From Nostoc sp. HK-01 (lineage in GTDB: Bacteria; Cyanobacteriota; Cyanobacteriia; Cyanobacteriales; Nostocaceae): a stretch of 64,000 nt of DNA. A program made the position numbers and the translations under genes. The notes beneath the pieces are model-generated. The model was not told the DNA's origin, did not search any database, and saw only the letters and a program-made list of their open reading frames with translations. Positions 1 to 12,999 of this stretch are shown here, in pieces. Each line of letters begins with the position of its first letter. Within the stretch, counting starts at the first letter, position 1. The DNA lies in NCBI GenBank assembly GCA_003990705.1, contig AP018318.1, forward strand, positions 2,917,501 to 2,981,500, written 5' to 3'.

Positions 1-2
1 GT

Positions 3-476
3 ATTACAGAAGTCCGTGCTACTGATGTGCAAGCAGCACAAGCTAATGTCGAGAGTGCAAAAGCTTCAGTTAAACAAGCTCAGGCTGAGTTGGATTTGAG
101 TTCTGTGCGAGCGCCGATAGCTGGACAAATTCTGAAAATTAATACTCGTCCTGGCGAAATTATTGGGACGAAAGGAATAGCTGACTTAGGCCGTACACAA
201 CAGATGTATGCAGTAGCAGAAATTTATGAAACTGATATTAAAAAAGTACGTTTAGGTCAGTCAGTCGTTATTACTAGTGATGCTTTACCAAAGCAATTAC
301 GAGGAACAGTCACAGATATTGGTCTGCAAGTCGGACAACAAAATATGTTTAATAATTTGCAAGTCGATACAGATAACAAAGTAATTGAGGTAAAAATTCG
401 GATTAACAACATGAAAGATTATAAACAAATTACCGCTCTTACTAACTTACAGGTGCAGGTACGCATTCGCATCTAA
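3..476 (+). CDS. devB: DevB/HlyD-type membrane fusion protein, 5' partial
   Basis: Periplasmic adaptor of a DevBCA (MacAB-like) exporter; in heterocyst formers DevBCA exports envelope glycolipids with TolC. The reading frame is open to the window edge (frame starts at base 3), so only the C-terminal part is seen. It shows the end of the coiled-coil hairpin (AQANVESAKASVKQAQ) and the lipoyl/barrel motif APIAGQILKINTRPGE, followed by the DevB-like stretch QMYAVAEIYETDI. It is followed by devC and devA in the same direction. The family call is firm. Which of the several DevBCA paralogues this is, and hence its substrate, cannot be told. Confidence 0.88.
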   Translation: MTEVRATDVQAAQANVESAKASVKQAQAELDLSSVRAPIAGQILKINTRPGEIIGTKGIADLGRTQQMYAVAEIYETDIKKVRLGQSVVITSDALPKQLRGTVTDIGLQVGQQNMFNNLQVDTDNKVIEVKIRINNMKDYKQITALTNLQVQVRIRI

Positions 477-554: not shown

Positions 555-1727
555 ATGATTATTAATATATCTCTAGCTTGGCTACAGTTAGCCCGACAAA
601 AAGCTCGTTTCCTTGTGGCTGCGACTGGAATTGCTTTTATTGCGGTCATGATGTTTATCCAAGTTGGTTTTCAAGATGCTTTATATACTAGTGCTACACA
701 GTTACATAATCATCTCAAAGGCGATTTATTCATCATCAGTACTCAATATCAATCATTGACATTTAATCAAAGTTTTCCCCGTTGGTATTTATATCAGATA
801 CTAGGGTGTGATGGGATAGAATCAGTCAATCCATTGTATATGCAGTTTGCTAAACTAAAAAATTTAAATAATGGGATTAAATTTCCCATATTTGTATTAG
901 GTTTTGAACCGGATAAATCAATTTTAGATTTACCCATTATTCAGCAGAGTCACAGTTTACTACAATTACCAAACATAGTTTTATTTGACAGTAAATCTCG
1001 ATCACAATTTGGCCCAATCTCTCAAGAATTTGAAGAAGAAAAAACTGTAATTCTTGAAATATTTAACTATACTTCTTCAATTGGCTATAAAGTAAAAGTT
1101 GGTGGATTATTTAGCTTAGGGCCATCCTTTGGAGTTGATGGAAATTTAATTGTTAGTACCTCTACTTTTTTCCAAATATTCCAAGGTCGTTCAGTACAAA
1201 ATGTAGATATAGGCATCATTAATCTCAAACCCGATGCTAACCCTCAACGGGTTTTGGCTAGTTTAACTGCCAAATTACCTAAAGATGTAATAGTAATTAC
1301 ACGCCAGGATTTTATTAATCTGGAAAAAAACTATTGGACTGTCAGAGCGCCAATTGGATTTGTGTTTCAATTGATGGTGACTATGGTATTTATTGTTGGT
1401 GTAGTAGTTGTCTATCAAATTCTTTATAGTAATATCTCTAGTCATTTAGCTGAATATGCAACTCTTAAAGCAATGGGTTTTAAAAATAAATACCTGCTAA
1501 TTGTAGTATTTCAACAATCTTTAATATTAGCTTTTTTTGGATACATACCTGGTTTGGCTATATCTATAGCTTTGTACGATGTAGCTCAAGATTTTACTAA
1601 CTTACCAATTAGTATGAGTTTAGATAAAGCAGCGTTAGTATTATTTTTTATAGTGTTAATGTGCTTGGCTTCTGGGTTTATATCAACCAAAAAATTGCGG
1701 AATGTAGATCCAGCTAACTTTTTTTAA
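555..1727 (+). CDS. devC: DevC-type ABC exporter permease
   Basis: Inner-membrane FtsX/MacB-type permease of a DevBCA exporter. 390 aa, the usual DevC length. It has one N-terminal membrane segment (around residues 18-38, FLVAATGIAFIAVMMFIQVGF), a large periplasmic domain, and three C-terminal membrane segments (about 275-300, 320-345, 360-380), which is DevC topology. It starts 78 bp after devB and ends 27 bp before devA, consistent with one operon. The ribosome binding site before the ATG is weak. Confidence 0.9.
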   Translation: MIINISLAWLQLARQKARFLVAATGIAFIAVMMFIQVGFQDALYTSATQLHNHLKGDLFIISTQYQSLTFNQSFPRWYLYQILGCDGIESVNPLYMQFAKLKNLNNGIKFPIFVLGFEPDKSILDLPIIQQSHSLLQLPNIVLFDSKSRSQFGPISQEFEEEKTVILEIFNYTSSIGYKVKVGGLFSLGPSFGVDGNLIVSTSTFFQIFQGRSVQNVDIGIINLKPDANPQRVLASLTAKLPKDVIVITRQDFINLEKNYWTVRAPIGFVFQLMVTMVFIVGVVVVYQILYSNISSHLAEYATLKAMGFKNKYLLIVVFQQSLILAFFGYIPGLAISIALYDVAQDFTNLPISMSLDKAALVLFFIVLMCLASGFISTKKLRNVDPANFF

Positions 1728-1754: not shown

Positions 1755-2444
1755 ATGGTCATGACAGACTTTATTGTTGGCATCACAAATCTTAATCACT
1801 ATTTTGGAAAGCAAACATTAAAAAGTCAGATTTTATTTGACATTAGTTTCAATATTAAGTATGGAGAAATTGTAACTATGACTGGGCCTTCGGGTTCAGG
1901 TAAAACCACTTTATTAACTTTGATTGGTGGGTTACGTTCTGTGCAGCAGGGAAGTTTGAAATTTCTCGATCAAGAGCTTTATGGAGCTAGTAATGACAAA
2001 TTAGTAGAAGTGCGTCGTCATATTGGCTATATTTTTCAAACTCACAATTTACTGAATTTCTTAACATCTCGACAAAATGTTCAGATGTCACTTGAATTAG
2101 ACAATAGTATTCCTAAATGGGAAGCTCGTAAAAAATCAGAAGCTATGCTTCATGCTGTTAAATTAGGGAATCGAATTAATTGCTATCCATCTGAACTTTC
2201 TGGTGGTCAAAAACAACGAGTAGCAATTGCCCGTGCTTTAGTAAGTCATCCTAAATTAATTTTAGCTGATGAACCTACCGCCGCATTAGATAGTAAATCA
2301 GGTCGAGATATTGTGAACCTGATGCAACTATTAGCTAAGGAACAAAATTGTGCCATTTTAATGGTTACTCATGACAATAGAATTTTAGATATCTCTGAGC
2401 GAATAATACACATAGAAGATGGTCGAATAGTTAAAAAAGTTTAG
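1755..2444 (+). CDS. devA: DevA-type ABC transporter ATP-binding protein
   Basis: Cytoplasmic ATPase driving the DevBC exporter. 229 aa. Visible motifs: Walker A GPSGSGKT (44-51), Q-loop Q95, signature LSGGQKQR (148-155), Walker B LILADE (168-173), D-loop, and the switch histidine in THD (206). There is no C39 peptidase domain, so if this exporter handles the GG-leader peptide encoded just downstream, another protease would have to remove the leader. A second ATG two codons in is an alternative start. A hairpin with T-tract follows at 2468-2512. Confidence 0.93.
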   Translation: MVMTDFIVGITNLNHYFGKQTLKSQILFDISFNIKYGEIVTMTGPSGSGKTTLLTLIGGLRSVQQGSLKFLDQELYGASNDKLVEVRRHIGYIFQTHNLLNFLTSRQNVQMSLELDNSIPKWEARKKSEAMLHAVKLGNRINCYPSELSGGQKQRVAIARALVSHPKLILADEPTAALDSKSGRDIVNLMQLLAKEQNCAILMVTHDNRILDISERIIHIEDGRIVKKV

Positions 2445-2467: not shown

Positions 2468-2512
2468 ACCATTTAAATCTGTTGACAAATGGTACTATTT
2501 TTTATTTTTTTA
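2468..2512 (+). terminator. Terminator-like hairpin after devA
   Basis: ACCATTT (2468-2474) pairs with AAATGGT (2487-2493) and is followed by a T-rich run. It probably ends most devBCA transcripts, so the small gene at 2582 may have its own promoter or depend on read-through. Confidence 0.5.
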
Positions 2513-2581
2513 AATAAATAACTCTCAATAATATGCTTCAATTTTCAAGACTATTGTAATTTCTGAGGAGAAAGCAAAATC

Positions 2582-2827
2582 ATGGCTAGTATCATAATTT
2601 CTTATTTTCACCCTACTGACGTAGAGGTATTTATGTACAATCTAACACTATCTCAATGTGAGGCTGTATTGGGAGGTTATACCTATGTTAATTTAATAAA
2701 TATTACTGATAGCGTAAATAGCATTAGTAATACATACTATTTAGGTTCTTACGCGTTTAATTTCCATGATAATAGAATTTACACAATAGACTATACAAGG
2801 TCTATTTACAACTTCTTCTATCTTTAG
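2582..2827 (+). CDS. Candidate double-glycine leader precursor peptide
   Basis: 81 aa (or 64 aa from the internal ATG at 2633). No family is recognised. The stretch LTLSQCEAVLGG matches the double-glycine leader pattern: leucine at -12, hydroxyl residue at -11, hydrophobic residue at -4, and GG at -2/-1. The core after GG is about 49 aa, rich in Tyr, Asn, Ser and Ile, without Cys. A good ribosome binding site, GAGGAG (2565-2570), lies 11 bases before the ATG at 2582; AGAGG (2623-2627) lies before the internal ATG, which would give a leader of typical GG length. It sits 137 bp after devA. Export by the neighbouring DevBCA proteins is inference; a bacteriocin or signal peptide is possible. Confidence 0.5.
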   Translation: MASIIISYFHPTDVEVFMYNLTLSQCEAVLGGYTYVNLINITDSVNSISNTYYLGSYAFNFHDNRIYTIDYTRSIYNFFYL

Positions 2828-6702: not shown

Positions 6703-8340
6703 GTGCGTTGGCATTTTTTGGCGATTTTTGGTTCAATAACGGTGTCTGTTGTGTCTTTACCACCAGTGACAGCCCAGATTCCATTGTTACCACTGTTGCA
6801 AACTCCCAGCAGTCCCAGTAATGACTCTGATAATAGAACTGTTTCTGACTGGATTTATTTAGATGGTCGGCGTTTATTTCAGATAAGCGCCACGAAAACT
6901 AATTTATCAGAGCGCTTACAAAACATTCAACGAAATTTGAATCAAATTAGCCAGAATTACTTTCAATCCTCTGAACAAGAAGTCAATGTCGAGGTGCGGA
7001 AAGTTAACGAAATACCTGTAATTCAGGTTAATGGCGAATATCTGATGAGTGTCACTGCGGAGGATGCGAAACTCCGACAGGAAGATCAGCAGATATCGGC
7101 GAATCAAATTGCTGATGCTTTACAAGAAGATTTACAGCGAGCAAAGCAAGAACGACAAACTCAATATCTGATCAATCAAGGTAAAATTGCTGCTGGCGTT
7201 GGCCTGGTAATGGTGGTCACAAGTTGGGGTGTATATTATTGGCAGCGTCGTTCACGAAAAGAACCAGCACAGTCAGTTCCCTCAATCTCTTCAACAGCGC
7301 AACCAATTACTACGCAACTGAATCAACAGCAACATCGTCATTTCCAGGAAGTTAAGAAGCGTTTGTTTCAGTTAACGCAAGCAGGAATCTGGGGAGGGGG
7401 CAATTTTCTAATTTTGGGGCTATTTCCCTACACTCGGCCGTTTCAAGTAGCTATTCTCTCCGCTGCTCAAATTCCGATAAAACTCGCTGTTGTGGTGTTG
7501 GGGACTTATGTCGCTACCCGTTTCAGCTATGCTCTCATTGATCGCTTTACTACTACACTCATCAGCAGTGGGGCTTTATTAACCACTGATACCTCGGAAC
7601 GTCTGCGTTTACGAGTATCTACGTTTTCGGGCGTGACTAAAAGTATTGTCACTATTATCTGGGTAGGAGTTGGGATTTTACTCGCCTTAGTTTCTTTGGG
7701 TATCGATATTGTTCCCTTACTTGCAGGTGCAGGTTTAGTTGGCGTTGCTGTATCTTTGGCTTCCCAAAACCTGATTAAAGATGCAATTAACGGCTTCTTG
7801 ATTATCCTGGAAGACCAGTATGCTTTGGGTGATGTAATTAATGTTGGCAATGTGGGCGGCTTAGTGGAAAATCTCAATTTGCGGATGACACAATTGCGTG
7901 ATTCTGAAGGACGCTTAATCACCATTCCCAATAGTGAGATTAAAATTGTTGCTAACCTTTCTAGCCGTTGGTCACGCGCCGATTTAACTGTTCCCATCGC
8001 CTATGAAGCTGATGTTGACCATGCTTTGAACTTGATTAAAAAAGTAGCTTTAGAAATGGATCAAGACCTGCAATGGAAACATCAAATTATCGAAACTCCG
8101 CAGGTTTTAGGTATTGATAATTTTGGCGATCGCGGTTTAATTATCCGTGTTTGGATTAAAACCCAACCTCTTAAACAATGGGATGTCGCACGGGAATATC
8201 GCCGTCGCCTGAAAGTTACCCTCGACCAAGCAGGAATTAATATCCCTGTACCACAACAAGCAATTTGGGTGAACGATGCACAGCTATTGAATGCACAGAT
8301 GAATGGAAAAGCAGATGAGTCAATAGTCAATAGTCAATAG
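6703..8340 (+). CDS. MscS-family mechanosensitive channel with exported N-terminal domain
   Basis: 545 aa. It opens under membrane tension to release solutes. N-terminal signal-like segment (1-24), a periplasmic region (about 30-155), a membrane segment near 158-178, further membrane segments from about 225 to 350, then the MscS pore and beta domain. The pore helix GLVGVAVSLASQNLIKDAINGF and the following DQYALGDVINVG are characteristic. The GTG start is fixed by a perfect Shine-Dalgarno AAGGAGGTG (6689-6697). The last six residues SIVNSQ are encoded by a tandem heptamer repeat, so the natural C-terminus was probably extended by it. Confidence 0.9.
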   Translation: MRWHFLAIFGSITVSVVSLPPVTAQIPLLPLLQTPSSPSNDSDNRTVSDWIYLDGRRLFQISATKTNLSERLQNIQRNLNQISQNYFQSSEQEVNVEVRKVNEIPVIQVNGEYLMSVTAEDAKLRQEDQQISANQIADALQEDLQRAKQERQTQYLINQGKIAAGVGLVMVVTSWGVYYWQRRSRKEPAQSVPSISSTAQPITTQLNQQQHRHFQEVKKRLFQLTQAGIWGGGNFLILGLFPYTRPFQVAILSAAQIPIKLAVVVLGTYVATRFSYALIDRFTTTLISSGALLTTDTSERLRLRVSTFSGVTKSIVTIIWVGVGILLALVSLGIDIVPLLAGAGLVGVAVSLASQNLIKDAINGFLIILEDQYALGDVINVGNVGGLVENLNLRMTQLRDSEGRLITIPNSEIKIVANLSSRWSRADLTVPIAYEADVDHALNLIKKVALEMDQDLQWKHQIIETPQVLGIDNFGDRGLIIRVWIKTQPLKQWDVAREYRRRLKVTLDQAGINIPVPQQAIWVNDAQLLNAQMNGKADESIVNSQ

Positions 8341-8721: not shown

Positions 8722-9468
8722 TTACCACTGTAATTGAATTGGCCCACCAAACTTCCGCATCTCTGCAAAAAATTGTCCTTGCGCTCCTCCGTCTGGTAGC
8801 GTTGCTAAATAGACTGCTGTTTCTGCGCCTTCTTCTGCGGTGAATGGCGCATTCTCACCTCCCATATCAGTTTTCATCCAACCAGGAGAATAGGTATTGA
8901 CGAGAATATTCTCGTTTTGGAGTTCCCTAGCTAGAAGTATAGTTAGCCCATTGATCCCGACTTTGGAAAGTCTATAGGAAGGTGCTAGGGGGTAGTAGTC
9001 ACTGCCCATTGCATGCAAAGAAGCCATTTCAGTAGAAACGTTAACAATGCGACCGTAGTTGTTGAGTTTCATCAAGGGTATTAAAGCTTGAGAAATTCTC
9101 AGTACTGCTAGAACATTAGTGTTAAATGTAGCTTGCATTGTTTCTAGCCGAACAGTCAATAAGCTGGATTCTTCGGGTGTGGCGGTAGGATTAATACCAG
9201 CGTTATTCACCAGAATATCTACCTTACCGTAGGTTTGCTGTAGCCATTGGGTAAATTGTGTAACACTAGTATCACTATTTACATCAAGTACATGATGGTT
9301 GATATCTAGCCCTTCACCAGATAACTGCTGCTTGGCTGCTAGACCATCTGTTTCATTACGGCTGGTTAACACAACATGAATACCGTTTTGAGCCAATTTT
9401 CGGGAGATAGCATATCCTAAGCCACGATTGCTACCTGTAACTACGGCAATCTTGGTTTGAGTTGTCAT
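8722..9468 (-). CDS. Short-chain dehydrogenase/reductase
   Basis: 248 aa NAD(P)-dependent oxidoreductase of the classical SDR type. Visible: the cofactor motif TGSNRGLG (11-18), NNAGI (about 88-92), the catalytic serine region NVSTEMAS and the YRLSK motif (Y-x3-K). Substrate not predictable. It is transcribed divergently from a LysR regulator across an 85-bp gap, the usual sign that the regulator controls it. Confidence 0.9.
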   Translation of the reverse strand: MTTQTKIAVVTGSNRGLGYAISRKLAQNGIHVVLTSRNETDGLAAKQQLSGEGLDINHHVLDVNSDTSVTQFTQWLQQTYGKVDILVNNAGINPTATPEESSLLTVRLETMQATFNTNVLAVLRISQALIPLMKLNNYGRIVNVSTEMASLHAMGSDYYPLAPSYRLSKVGINGLTILLARELQNENILVNTYSPGWMKTDMGGENAPFTAEEGAETAVYLATLPDGGAQGQFFAEMRKFGGPIQLQW

Positions 9469-10471: not shown

Positions 10472-12999
10472 AACACAAAATTCCTAGAGTCGTTCAAAGC
10501 GTTAGCAGATACATTGCGTAACCTCACTAACTCCAAAGCCACACGTTGACCAGCAGTACCATCTAAGTCAATTAAAACTGAGGTGTCTGTTCCTGCTGTT
10601 TGCAACTGCAAGTAACCGCCGGCAATGGCTGTGGCGAAGTTCAAGTTGCTCAAATCTAAACTCCGCCAGAGTGCTTGTAAGACAATTTTATCTGTACCAA
10701 CGGCAAAGTCTGTAATTGTATCGCCGCTATCAGCAAGGCTGGTATAAACAAAGCTATCTGCACCAGCACCACCCGTCAGCACATCTGCACCTCTCAAGCC
10801 GGCAATCAAATCATTGGCAGCCGTACCCCGAAGATTATCAGGATATGCTGTGCCATTAATTACAGATGCTTCATAAGCTCCGATATCTACCCGACCATTA
10901 GAAATACGTCGATAACCACTACCACGTTGATCAAAAGGTATGCCTTCGGTAGTATTGCCATCTCTATCTAAATCTGCAATGTCAGCAGGTATATCGGCGT
11001 TGTTACCTGCGTTAATGGCGGGACTGCCATAAACTAAGGCGTGGGTTTTGACTGGGCCGCCATTGTCACGCAGGATAGTATCAATAACTTGGGAAATGCT
11101 GACTTGCAGTTGTTCACTGGGATTAAAGCCTGTGCTGCCATCAAGGTTGCCAATGAGGTTATAGCCGTTGCTGATAAAGTTACCTACAACATCGGGGTTA
11201 ACTGCGCCAGGAATGCCATCGTTGTTACCTGCTATGATGCTGTTTTTGATGGTGGCTGTACCTGTGGCTGAGTTGTAGATACCTGCACCGCTAAATACAG
11301 TGTTTTCATCATCATAGTAAGACTTGTTGAGGGCGATCGTGCTGTTGCTGACGGTTAAGGTGCCAGAGTTATAAATTCCACCACCTTCGGAGTAGGACTG
11401 GTTGCCACTAATAGTACTGTTAACTAAAGTTAGAGTGCCAGAGTTGTTAATGCCACCGCCAATGCCTGCGATGTTGTTGTTAATGGTGGTGTTAATTACA
11501 GATGCAGTGCCGTAGTTGAGGATACCACCTCCTAACCCTACTGAGTTATCACTGATGGTAGAACTAATGATGGTTATGGTGCCATAATTAACAATCGTGC
11601 CATTTGCGGCTCCATCTGGATTGGAATTACCAGTGATAGTACTTCTAATAACTGTAAGATTGCTAGATGCTGAGTTATAGATGCCATTGCTGTTAATATC
11701 TCCCGTAAAATCTAAACCTCCTATGTTGCCGCTGATAGTGCTGTTGCTTAGTGTGACGTTGCCACTACCTCTAAGGCCTGCACTACTGAGACCTGCGCTA
11801 CCGTAGTCTGAGGAGTTATTACTGATAGTGCTGTTAGTTACAGTTGCGGTACCAAAAATACTAAGACCAGCATTACTAGAGTCGTAGTATGAATAGTTGC
11901 CATTGATTATGGTTTTATCTATCTTGCTGGTGCCATTAGCAACAAGTCCGCTAAAACTTCTACCGCTATTGTAATTAATCGAGCTGTTAGTTACTGTTAG
12001 GGTTCCTGAATGGATGACTCCACTTGACCAATAAGAAAAATTATTATCTATGTGGCTGTTGCTGATAATCAATATACCTGAGCTATCAATGCCAGCTCCA
12101 GCGCCACCAACTGCGATCGCTATATTATTACTAACACTACTATTTTTGATGGTTAGGCTGCCACTACTCACAATGCCGCTGAATGCAATGTACTCTTGGT
12201 TGTCTGACTGATTGTCATCAACATGGCTATAATTCAAAGTTACAGTGCCAGTATTGTAGAGGCCAGTACCACCACCTGCGCCTCGGTTATTGTTGATAGT
12301 GCTGTTTTTAGCTGTTAAAGTCCCAGTGTTATATATACCTGCACCGTTGCCTAAGCTATCGGGGGAGTAGGAGTCATTGTAGTACCCGGCAGAGTTGCCA
12401 TTAATGGCACTGTTGTTAAGAGTGACAATACCAGCGTTGTAGATACCACCCCCATCACCTGCATAAAAGAAACCCTCAGCATCAACTTGGCCTGCATAGT
12501 TAGCTGTAACGCTGCTGTTGTTGACCTTTAAAACTCCAGAGTTCGAGTTATAAATGCCACCACCATTGTTGCCGGAACTGTCTTGACCACCAGAAAAGTT
12601 ATTGCGAATGGTGACATTTCTTAATGTCAGATTACCGGCATTGTAAACGCCGCCACCTCCTCTTGTATCTGTGGCATAGCCATTAGCAATTGTTAACCCT
12701 TCAATGTCAACGGTGATGCCGTTAGCAATTTCAAATACACGAGATATGTTGTTGTCTTGAGCAAAATTGTAGTTACCGCTGATGGTGAGCAAGTTTGAAC
12801 CTCTACCATCAATGCTGAGGTCATCGGCTATGAACAAACTACTACCGCCAAGGCTGATAGTATCGGCAATGTTGTCGGTGAAGAGTCCGCCTGTAAATCT
12901 GATTAAGTCTTTGCCGGCTGAGGTGTTGGCATTTAAAATTGCTTGCTGTAATGAACCAAGACCACTGCTTTTAGTGTTGGTGACGTTAAAAGTAGCCAT
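10468..12999 (-). CDS. Secreted beta-helix protein with C-terminal RTX region
   Basis: 843 aa. It starts MATFNVTNTKSSGLGSLQQA, a start common in cyanobacterial right-handed parallel beta-helix proteins (choice-of-anchor type). Residues 85-610 are about 20 turns of a repeat of the form GTLTVxNSTIxxN, rich in Asn, Ser and Gly. The C-terminus (about 725-843) carries calcium-binding nonapeptide motifs (GLRGADVLTGGAGADSF) and the DTITDFAVGTDKI segment typical of type I secretion substrates. No signal peptide, which fits type I secretion. Likely a cell-surface or released protein; no catalytic motif was seen. Confidence 0.85.
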   Translation of the reverse strand: MATFNVTNTKSSGLGSLQQAILNANTSAGKDLIRFTGGLFTDNIADTISLGGSSLFIADDLSIDGRGSNLLTISGNYNFAQDNNISRVFEIANGITVDIEGLTIANGYATDTRGGGGVYNAGNLTLRNVTIRNNFSGGQDSSGNNGGGIYNSNSGVLKVNNSSVTANYAGQVDAEGFFYAGDGGGIYNAGIVTLNNSAINGNSAGYYNDSYSPDSLGNGAGIYNTGTLTAKNSTINNNRGAGGGTGLYNTGTVTLNYSHVDDNQSDNQEYIAFSGIVSSGSLTIKNSSVSNNIAIAVGGAGAGIDSSGILIISNSHIDNNFSYWSSGVIHSGTLTVTNSSINYNSGRSFSGLVANGTSKIDKTIINGNYSYYDSSNAGLSIFGTATVTNSTISNNSSDYGSAGLSSAGLRGSGNVTLSNSTISGNIGGLDFTGDINSNGIYNSASSNLTVIRSTITGNSNPDGAANGTIVNYGTITIISSTISDNSVGLGGGILNYGTASVINTTINNNIAGIGGGINNSGTLTLVNSTISGNQSYSEGGGIYNSGTLTVSNSTIALNKSYYDDENTVFSGAGIYNSATGTATIKNSIIAGNNDGIPGAVNPDVVGNFISNGYNLIGNLDGSTGFNPSEQLQVSISQVIDTILRDNGGPVKTHALVYGSPAINAGNNADIPADIADLDRDGNTTEGIPFDQRGSGYRRISNGRVDIGAYEASVINGTAYPDNLRGTAANDLIAGLRGADVLTGGAGADSFVYTSLADSGDTITDFAVGTDKIVLQALWRSLDLSNLNFATAIAGGYLQLQTAGTDTSVLIDLDGTAGQRVALELVRLRNVSANALNDSRNFVF

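Follow-up and report, generated by a model that had tools for sequence, protein, structure and literature searches.

Gene Organization at the pepA Locus

The window analyzed here, a 64,000-nucleotide stretch of the Nostoc sp. HK-01 genome (G000:C1:2917501-2981500), carries close to its start a small peptide gene, pepA, that follows an operon for a DevBCA-type exporter. Peptides with double-glycine (GG) leaders recur beside such operons in other Nostocaceae and, judging from gene neighborhoods and a DevC tree, only one DevBCA subclade takes part in this pairing.

The pepA open reading frame (ORF; 2582-2827, plus strand, stop codon 2825-2827) was identified from the ORF list and the sequence. 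It encodes 81 amino acids and begins 137 bp past the end of devA (2444), exactly where the first-pass annotation of this DNA had placed it. A ribosome-binding site, TGAGGAG (2564..2570, +), has its 3' end 11 nt from the ATG, and a similar site, AAGGAG, precedes the pepA orthologue in L007. A shorter start at 2636 was rejected: relatives conserve the first methionine and the residues next to it, and the position of the ribosome-binding site suits a start at 2582. Because that methionine is invariant in 15 relatives and also in 65 relatives, we take the leader (type A; 2582..2677, +) to be 32 aa long, with Gly-Gly at its end, and the core (2678..2824, +), which starts YTYVNLINITDS..., to be 49 aa long. 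The core bears the family motif HDNKIxTIDYSRxxYN. Both the GG-leader pattern (Leu at -12, Thr at -11, Val at -4) and the Cys-less core described in the first-pass annotation stand, the single Cys of PepA being in the leader. An AlphaFold model of PepA had a mean predicted local distance difference test score of 37 (11 rows), too poor for use.

Upstream of pepA, the DevB, DevC, and DevA models all score above their NCBIfam cut-offs and the genes lie in the order BCA, as expected of a DevBCA-type exporter. The window starts inside devB, which encodes the membrane-fusion protein, and contains its 3' part (1..476, +; TIGR02971 heterocyst_DevB, 177 bits, cut-off 129); the complete gene runs from L011:11763 (GTG) or 11790 (ATG) to 12977 on the plus strand, where L011 is C1:2905000-2922500 and a window position equals the L011 position minus 12501. 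It is followed by devC (555..1727, +; TIGR01185, 405 bits, cut-off 290), a MacB/FtsX-type permease of the peptide-linked subclade, and by devA (1755..2444, +; TIGR02982, 356 bits, cut-off 296; Pfam ABC_tran), which encodes an ATP-binding cassette (ABC) ATPase. A Pfam scan of DevA found the ATPase domain only and no C39 peptidase domain, in agreement with the earlier reading. Between devA and pepA, a weak hairpin (ACCATTT...AAATGGT) and a T-rich run (2468..2493, +) were read in the sequence as a possible attenuator. The hairpin is a suggestion only: folding of the 137-nt gap does not surpass that of shuffled sequences (z -0.88), and the hairpin is missing from the terminator scan, so that neither analysis supports a terminator or attenuator at this position.

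Used as a query against its own genome, PepA returned five further copies, four of them at most 7 kb upstream. In L011, two minus-strand genes, for a 234-aa protein and a sigma-70-like factor, come first, followed by PepA paralogues at 8812 (+), 9251 (-), and 10028 (+), PepC (10846-11052), PepB, devB, devC, devA, and PepA, so that all of the cluster's peptide genes except pepA itself lie upstream of the window. PepC is a GG peptide with a different core and a second leader type, type B. PepB (core start ITGVDLANIQDG...) ends at L011:11717, immediately 5' of devB and in the same orientation. In the 17.5 kb of L011 neither a modification enzyme nor a C39 gene was recognized; the ORFs there were inspected by eye, with family models applied to part of them. 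Considered as a lanthipeptide or another ribosomally synthesized and post-translationally modified peptide, PepA has a core without Cys and, within that partly scanned list, no recognized modification gene. One of the PepA paralogues (L011:10028-10282) ends in a TGA four residues earlier than its relatives, possibly through recent truncation.

The PepA Family and Its Double-Glycine Boundary

The first-pass annotation tied its reading of the leader to whether homologues keep the GG motif. Gly-Gly stands at the leader end in 54 of 65 diverse relatives, and the Gly at -2 in 62. The hydrophobic positions are also retained, with Ile, Val, or Leu at -4 in 61 and Leu, Ile, or Met at -12 in 64, a pattern that on these counts exceeds chance.

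Comparisons among the peptides of the cluster indicate where leader ends and core begins. PepA and PepB have homologous cores (Z 10.2 against shuffles) and non-homologous leaders (Z 1.2), while PepB and PepC have homologous leaders (Z 17.0 against shuffles) and non-homologous cores (Z 0.8). In addition, the PepB located 5' of devB has a leader of type B in genera g1 and g38 but of type A in g53. Because the core-only and leader-only homologies switch at the GG, and because the PepB leader has been swapped, the alignments identify GG as a true boundary between separable leader and core modules. Type-A leaders were also seen on unrelated hydrophobic cores near C39/HlyD operons (L064:1950-2192, L068:1869, L073:1297), so this leader is reused outside the PepA core family. 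PepC-like peptides with type-B leaders (L011:10846-11052; L010:1-2082) have Ala/Gly-rich hydrophobic cores, with up to four such genes in succession in L010, and one peptide of this kind matches the CTB bacteriocin model weakly.

Relative to its orthologues, PepA has a ratio of nonsynonymous to synonymous substitution rates (dN/dS) of 0.18-0.28 overall and 0.07-0.24 in the core, which shows purifying selection on the family. Matches to the PepA profile came from 68 of 218 Nostocaceae genomes, spread over 28 of 56 genera. A 65-member profile run over the whole order found full-length members almost only in Nostocaceae, with three weak matches outside. Assignment to a known GG-peptide family, which had been proposed as a check, failed: no curated model scored above cut-off for PepA, including those for NHLP and Nif11 precursors, CTB bacteriocins, and Bacteriocin_IIc. 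Pfam has no family for PepA, PepB, or any of the 65 members, and NCBIfam has no fitting one, three members giving weak CTB matches. These sequences apparently make up a large, unnamed family of Nostocaceae double-glycine peptides.

Linkage of the Peptides to One DevBCA Subclade

In a family-wide search, the ten best DevC matches (100 to 74% identity) came from ten genomes (G000, G158, G116, G167, G122, G128, G165, G202, G200, and G203; genera g1, g38, and g53), and all ten lie in PepB/PepA loci. L007 and L010 duplicate the records G167 and G165, as L008 and L009 do G038 and G075 (discussed below), and each was counted once. PepB-devBCA-PepA is the order in all seven genomes from g1 and g38; in the three g53 genomes PepB is still 5' of devB, but the PepA copies lie beyond PepB instead. 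The ten linked DevC proteins form one clade with support of 100/100. By contrast, the sister DevC tier (66-73% identity), a separate group found in other genomes and sometimes in the same ones, has no such GG peptides within about 3 kb of the operon in any of the 20 loci read. Fisher's exact test for 10/10 vs. 0/20 gives 3e-8, a value that is descriptive because the genomes are related. L007, L010, and L011 have different genes on either side of the cluster and the cluster itself stays intact, which argues that the link between peptides and devBCA is more than a long conserved stretch.

The Nostoc sp. HK-01 genome encodes five further full-length DevC paralogues (41-57% identity) and one partial copy, and no GG peptides of these types were found within 1.5 kb of those other devC loci. 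A role for DevBCA as a general neighbor of GG peptides was rejected on the basis of these loci and the sister operons. The pairing of a GG peptide with DevBCA proposed in the first-pass annotation thus recurs across ten genomes and three genera, yet in one subclade only, and most relatives of PepA lack a nearby devBCA. A literature search, with most subscription journals outside its coverage, returned no paper linking DevBCA to double-glycine peptides. Taken together, the gene orders show that PepB-devBCA(-PepA) is conserved as a unit in one branch of the peptide family, with a DevBCA subclade of its own.

A Candidate C39 Exporter in trans

Elsewhere in the family the peptides adjoin a different transporter. 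In 12 loci of genera g12, g15, g16, g18, and g20 (L064, L068, L073, L080, L082-L084, L086-L088, L105, and L109), PepA-family peptides are next to an HlyD-type protein and an ABC exporter with a C39 peptidase. The closest counterpart of these exporters in the Nostoc sp. HK-01 genome is a long-type C39-ABC/HlyD operon (L110:14289-18970, equal to G000:C1:999288-1003969) that no GG peptide adjoins. Its C39-ABC protein is 76-84% identical to those of 11 of the 12 loci over most of the protein, and 79% identical over 745 aa to that of the remaining one; for HlyD, identity across the 12 loci is 61-74%. Close relatives of this exporter were found in 18 of the 18 genomes checked, full length in most. 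In G158 it is in two pieces (C1:1403797 and C1:4730618, residues 2-273 and 256-1023), a split that resembles a rearrangement. Genes for TolC-type outer-membrane proteins are present as well.

The first-pass annotation had concluded that removal of the PepA leader would need another protease. DevA does lack the C39 domain, and the unlinked operon at C1:999288-1003969 is a candidate source. Since orthologous C39 exporters stand beside the family elsewhere, and relatives occur in all 18 genomes, supply of the protease for the PepA leader in trans by this exporter is plausible.

Other Neighboring Genes

The sigma-70-like factor and 234-aa protein upstream of the window (L011:6661-7365 and 7516-8163, minus strand) adjoin GG-peptide clusters in nine of the loci read (L011 and L050-L057), and the pair also occurs beside type-B leader peptides without devBCA in G208 (L189). 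The 234-aa partner has no Pfam or NCBIfam family. We consider the pair a candidate regulator of GG peptides. In three genomes a different ABC ATPase, with 34% identity to DevA, lies 1-2 kb from lone PepA copies (L058:6248, L090:6342, and L092:5134), and these loci have neighboring genes in common.

Comparison with Known Systems

Clustered small cyanobacterial proteins with GG leaders have been described in Synechococcus elongatus, where EbfG1-4 are processed and secreted by PteB, a C39-peptidase ABC exporter (PMC4997328). By description, PepA and PepB are set apart from these by cores with their own motif and by a genomic link with either DevBCA or a long-type C39 exporter. The GG precursor arrays also resemble groups I-VII of the cyanobacterial bacteriocin clusters (Wang 2011, PMC3140520), and the C39 and HlyD neighbors in the 12 loci resemble the long-type transporters of groups I, II, and VI. 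Those groups are defined around C39-ABC/HlyD genes, however, and the DevBCA-linked cluster has neither and so falls outside them; DevBCA is not mentioned in that work. Some family members match the CTB family bacteriocin model (NF038167), which also covers cyanobacterial GG-leader precursors, and every such match is below cut-off or too weak for assignment.

On the transporter side, the window operon has the same three protein families and gene order as DevBCA-HgdD of Anabaena PCC 7120 (PMC8277102), and likely also a TolC partner. Unlike that system, whose known substrate is the heterocyst glycolipid, the present copy belongs to a separate subclade linked to GG peptides. It is also MacB-type, like MacAB-TolC and PvdRT-OpmQ, which move peptides or peptide siderophores out of the periplasm through TolC (PMC5985334). 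Sec or other pumps deliver the substrates of those systems to the periplasm, and not a GG leader with a C39 exporter.

Possible Functions of the Peptide-Linked DevBCA

We infer that DevBCA transports PepA, and tentatively favor a model in which processing and extrusion are performed in succession. PepA would be the precursor of a secreted peptide of the Nostocaceae double-glycine family; the long-type C39-ABC exporter with HlyD (C1:999288-1003969) would cut after the GG and move the core over the inner membrane, by analogy with EbfG1-4/PteB of S. elongatus (PMC4997328); and DevBCA, as a MacB-type pump, would then expel the mature peptides from the periplasm via a TolC-type channel. Outside the cell the peptides may serve in antagonism, in signaling, or as matrix. 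Periplasmic action is proposed because MacB-type relatives take up their substrates there (PMC5985334). Put more broadly, the DevBCA subclade is on balance probably a dedicated transporter or immunity pump for GG peptides, with processing and extrusion split over two systems and with leaders and cores exchanged at the GG.

Several observations weigh against this interpretation. In G038 (Cyanocohniella) and G075 (Goleter), orthologous PepB and PepA genes are neighbors with no devBCA between them (PepB-PepA spacing 57 bp in L008), and no DevC above about 60% occurs elsewhere in either genome; the tree of the locus genes does not separate loss of devBCA from later gain in these two. Of the 62 family loci read, about 40 lack both exporters in their vicinity. 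The family overall therefore does not require DevBCA. The pepA gene stands 137 bp apart from devA, and the Fisher value given above overstates independence because the ten genomes are related. A C39-ABC/HlyD/TolC system can also export alone, which would make DevBCA redundant for export.

The main rival is self-protection, in which bacteriocin-like peptides would leave through C39-ABC/HlyD alone and DevBCA would clear re-entering peptide from the producer's periplasm or inner membrane. Such a role fits the complete C39/HlyD exporter in trans and the lack of any other immunity gene noticed in the PepA/PepB cluster (L011 ORF list), and ABC transporters without C39 beside bacteriocin genes are often immunity-related. 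MacB-type pumps, moreover, act from the periplasm and confer resistance (PMC5985334). Sequence cannot separate export from self-protection, but we think the latter less likely: orthologous PepA and PepB occur in G038 and G075, where this devBCA is missing, toxicity is putative, and the cores have neither Cys bridges nor an obvious amphipathic pattern. Somewhat less probable still is that DevBCA exports a glycolipid or another small molecule, as the characterized Anabaena DevBCA does with heterocyst glycolipids (PMC8277102), and that the peptides are merely co-regulated envelope, matrix, or developmental components. The absence of devBCA from most peptide-family loci is in keeping with this; the ten of ten linked genomes in the subclade against none of 20 in its sister are not, nor is the constancy of the peptide link while flanks vary, and no lipid or polysaccharide gene was recognized between the peptide genes and devBCA in the partly scanned L011 ORF list. 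Finally, devBCA may have landed once between pepB and pepA and been kept by descent with no functional coupling. The single clade formed by the ten linked DevC proteins would follow from such an event, and the adjacent PepB and PepA genes of G038 and G075 look as if a cassette had been inserted or lost. We regard this as very improbable, given that DevC identity falls to 74% across three genera that the link has been kept in g53 despite reshuffled PepB-devBCA surroundings, and that flanking genes of the cluster have been replaced.

Implications

Heterocyst-forming cyanobacteria carry many DevBCA paralogues, the substrates of which are mostly poorly known apart from that of the heterocyst glycolipid exporter. 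A peptide-linked subclade offers a direct guess at the substrate of one such paralogue, and suggests that DevBCA-type transporters, known from the export of heterocyst glycolipids, act on secreted peptides as well. Added on the peptide side is a widespread and apparently unnamed GG-peptide family of Nostocaceae, in which natural swaps of leader and core mark the cleavage site. In combination with the C39 exporter in trans, the arrangement suggests that the processing and export of a peptide can be divided between two transporters.
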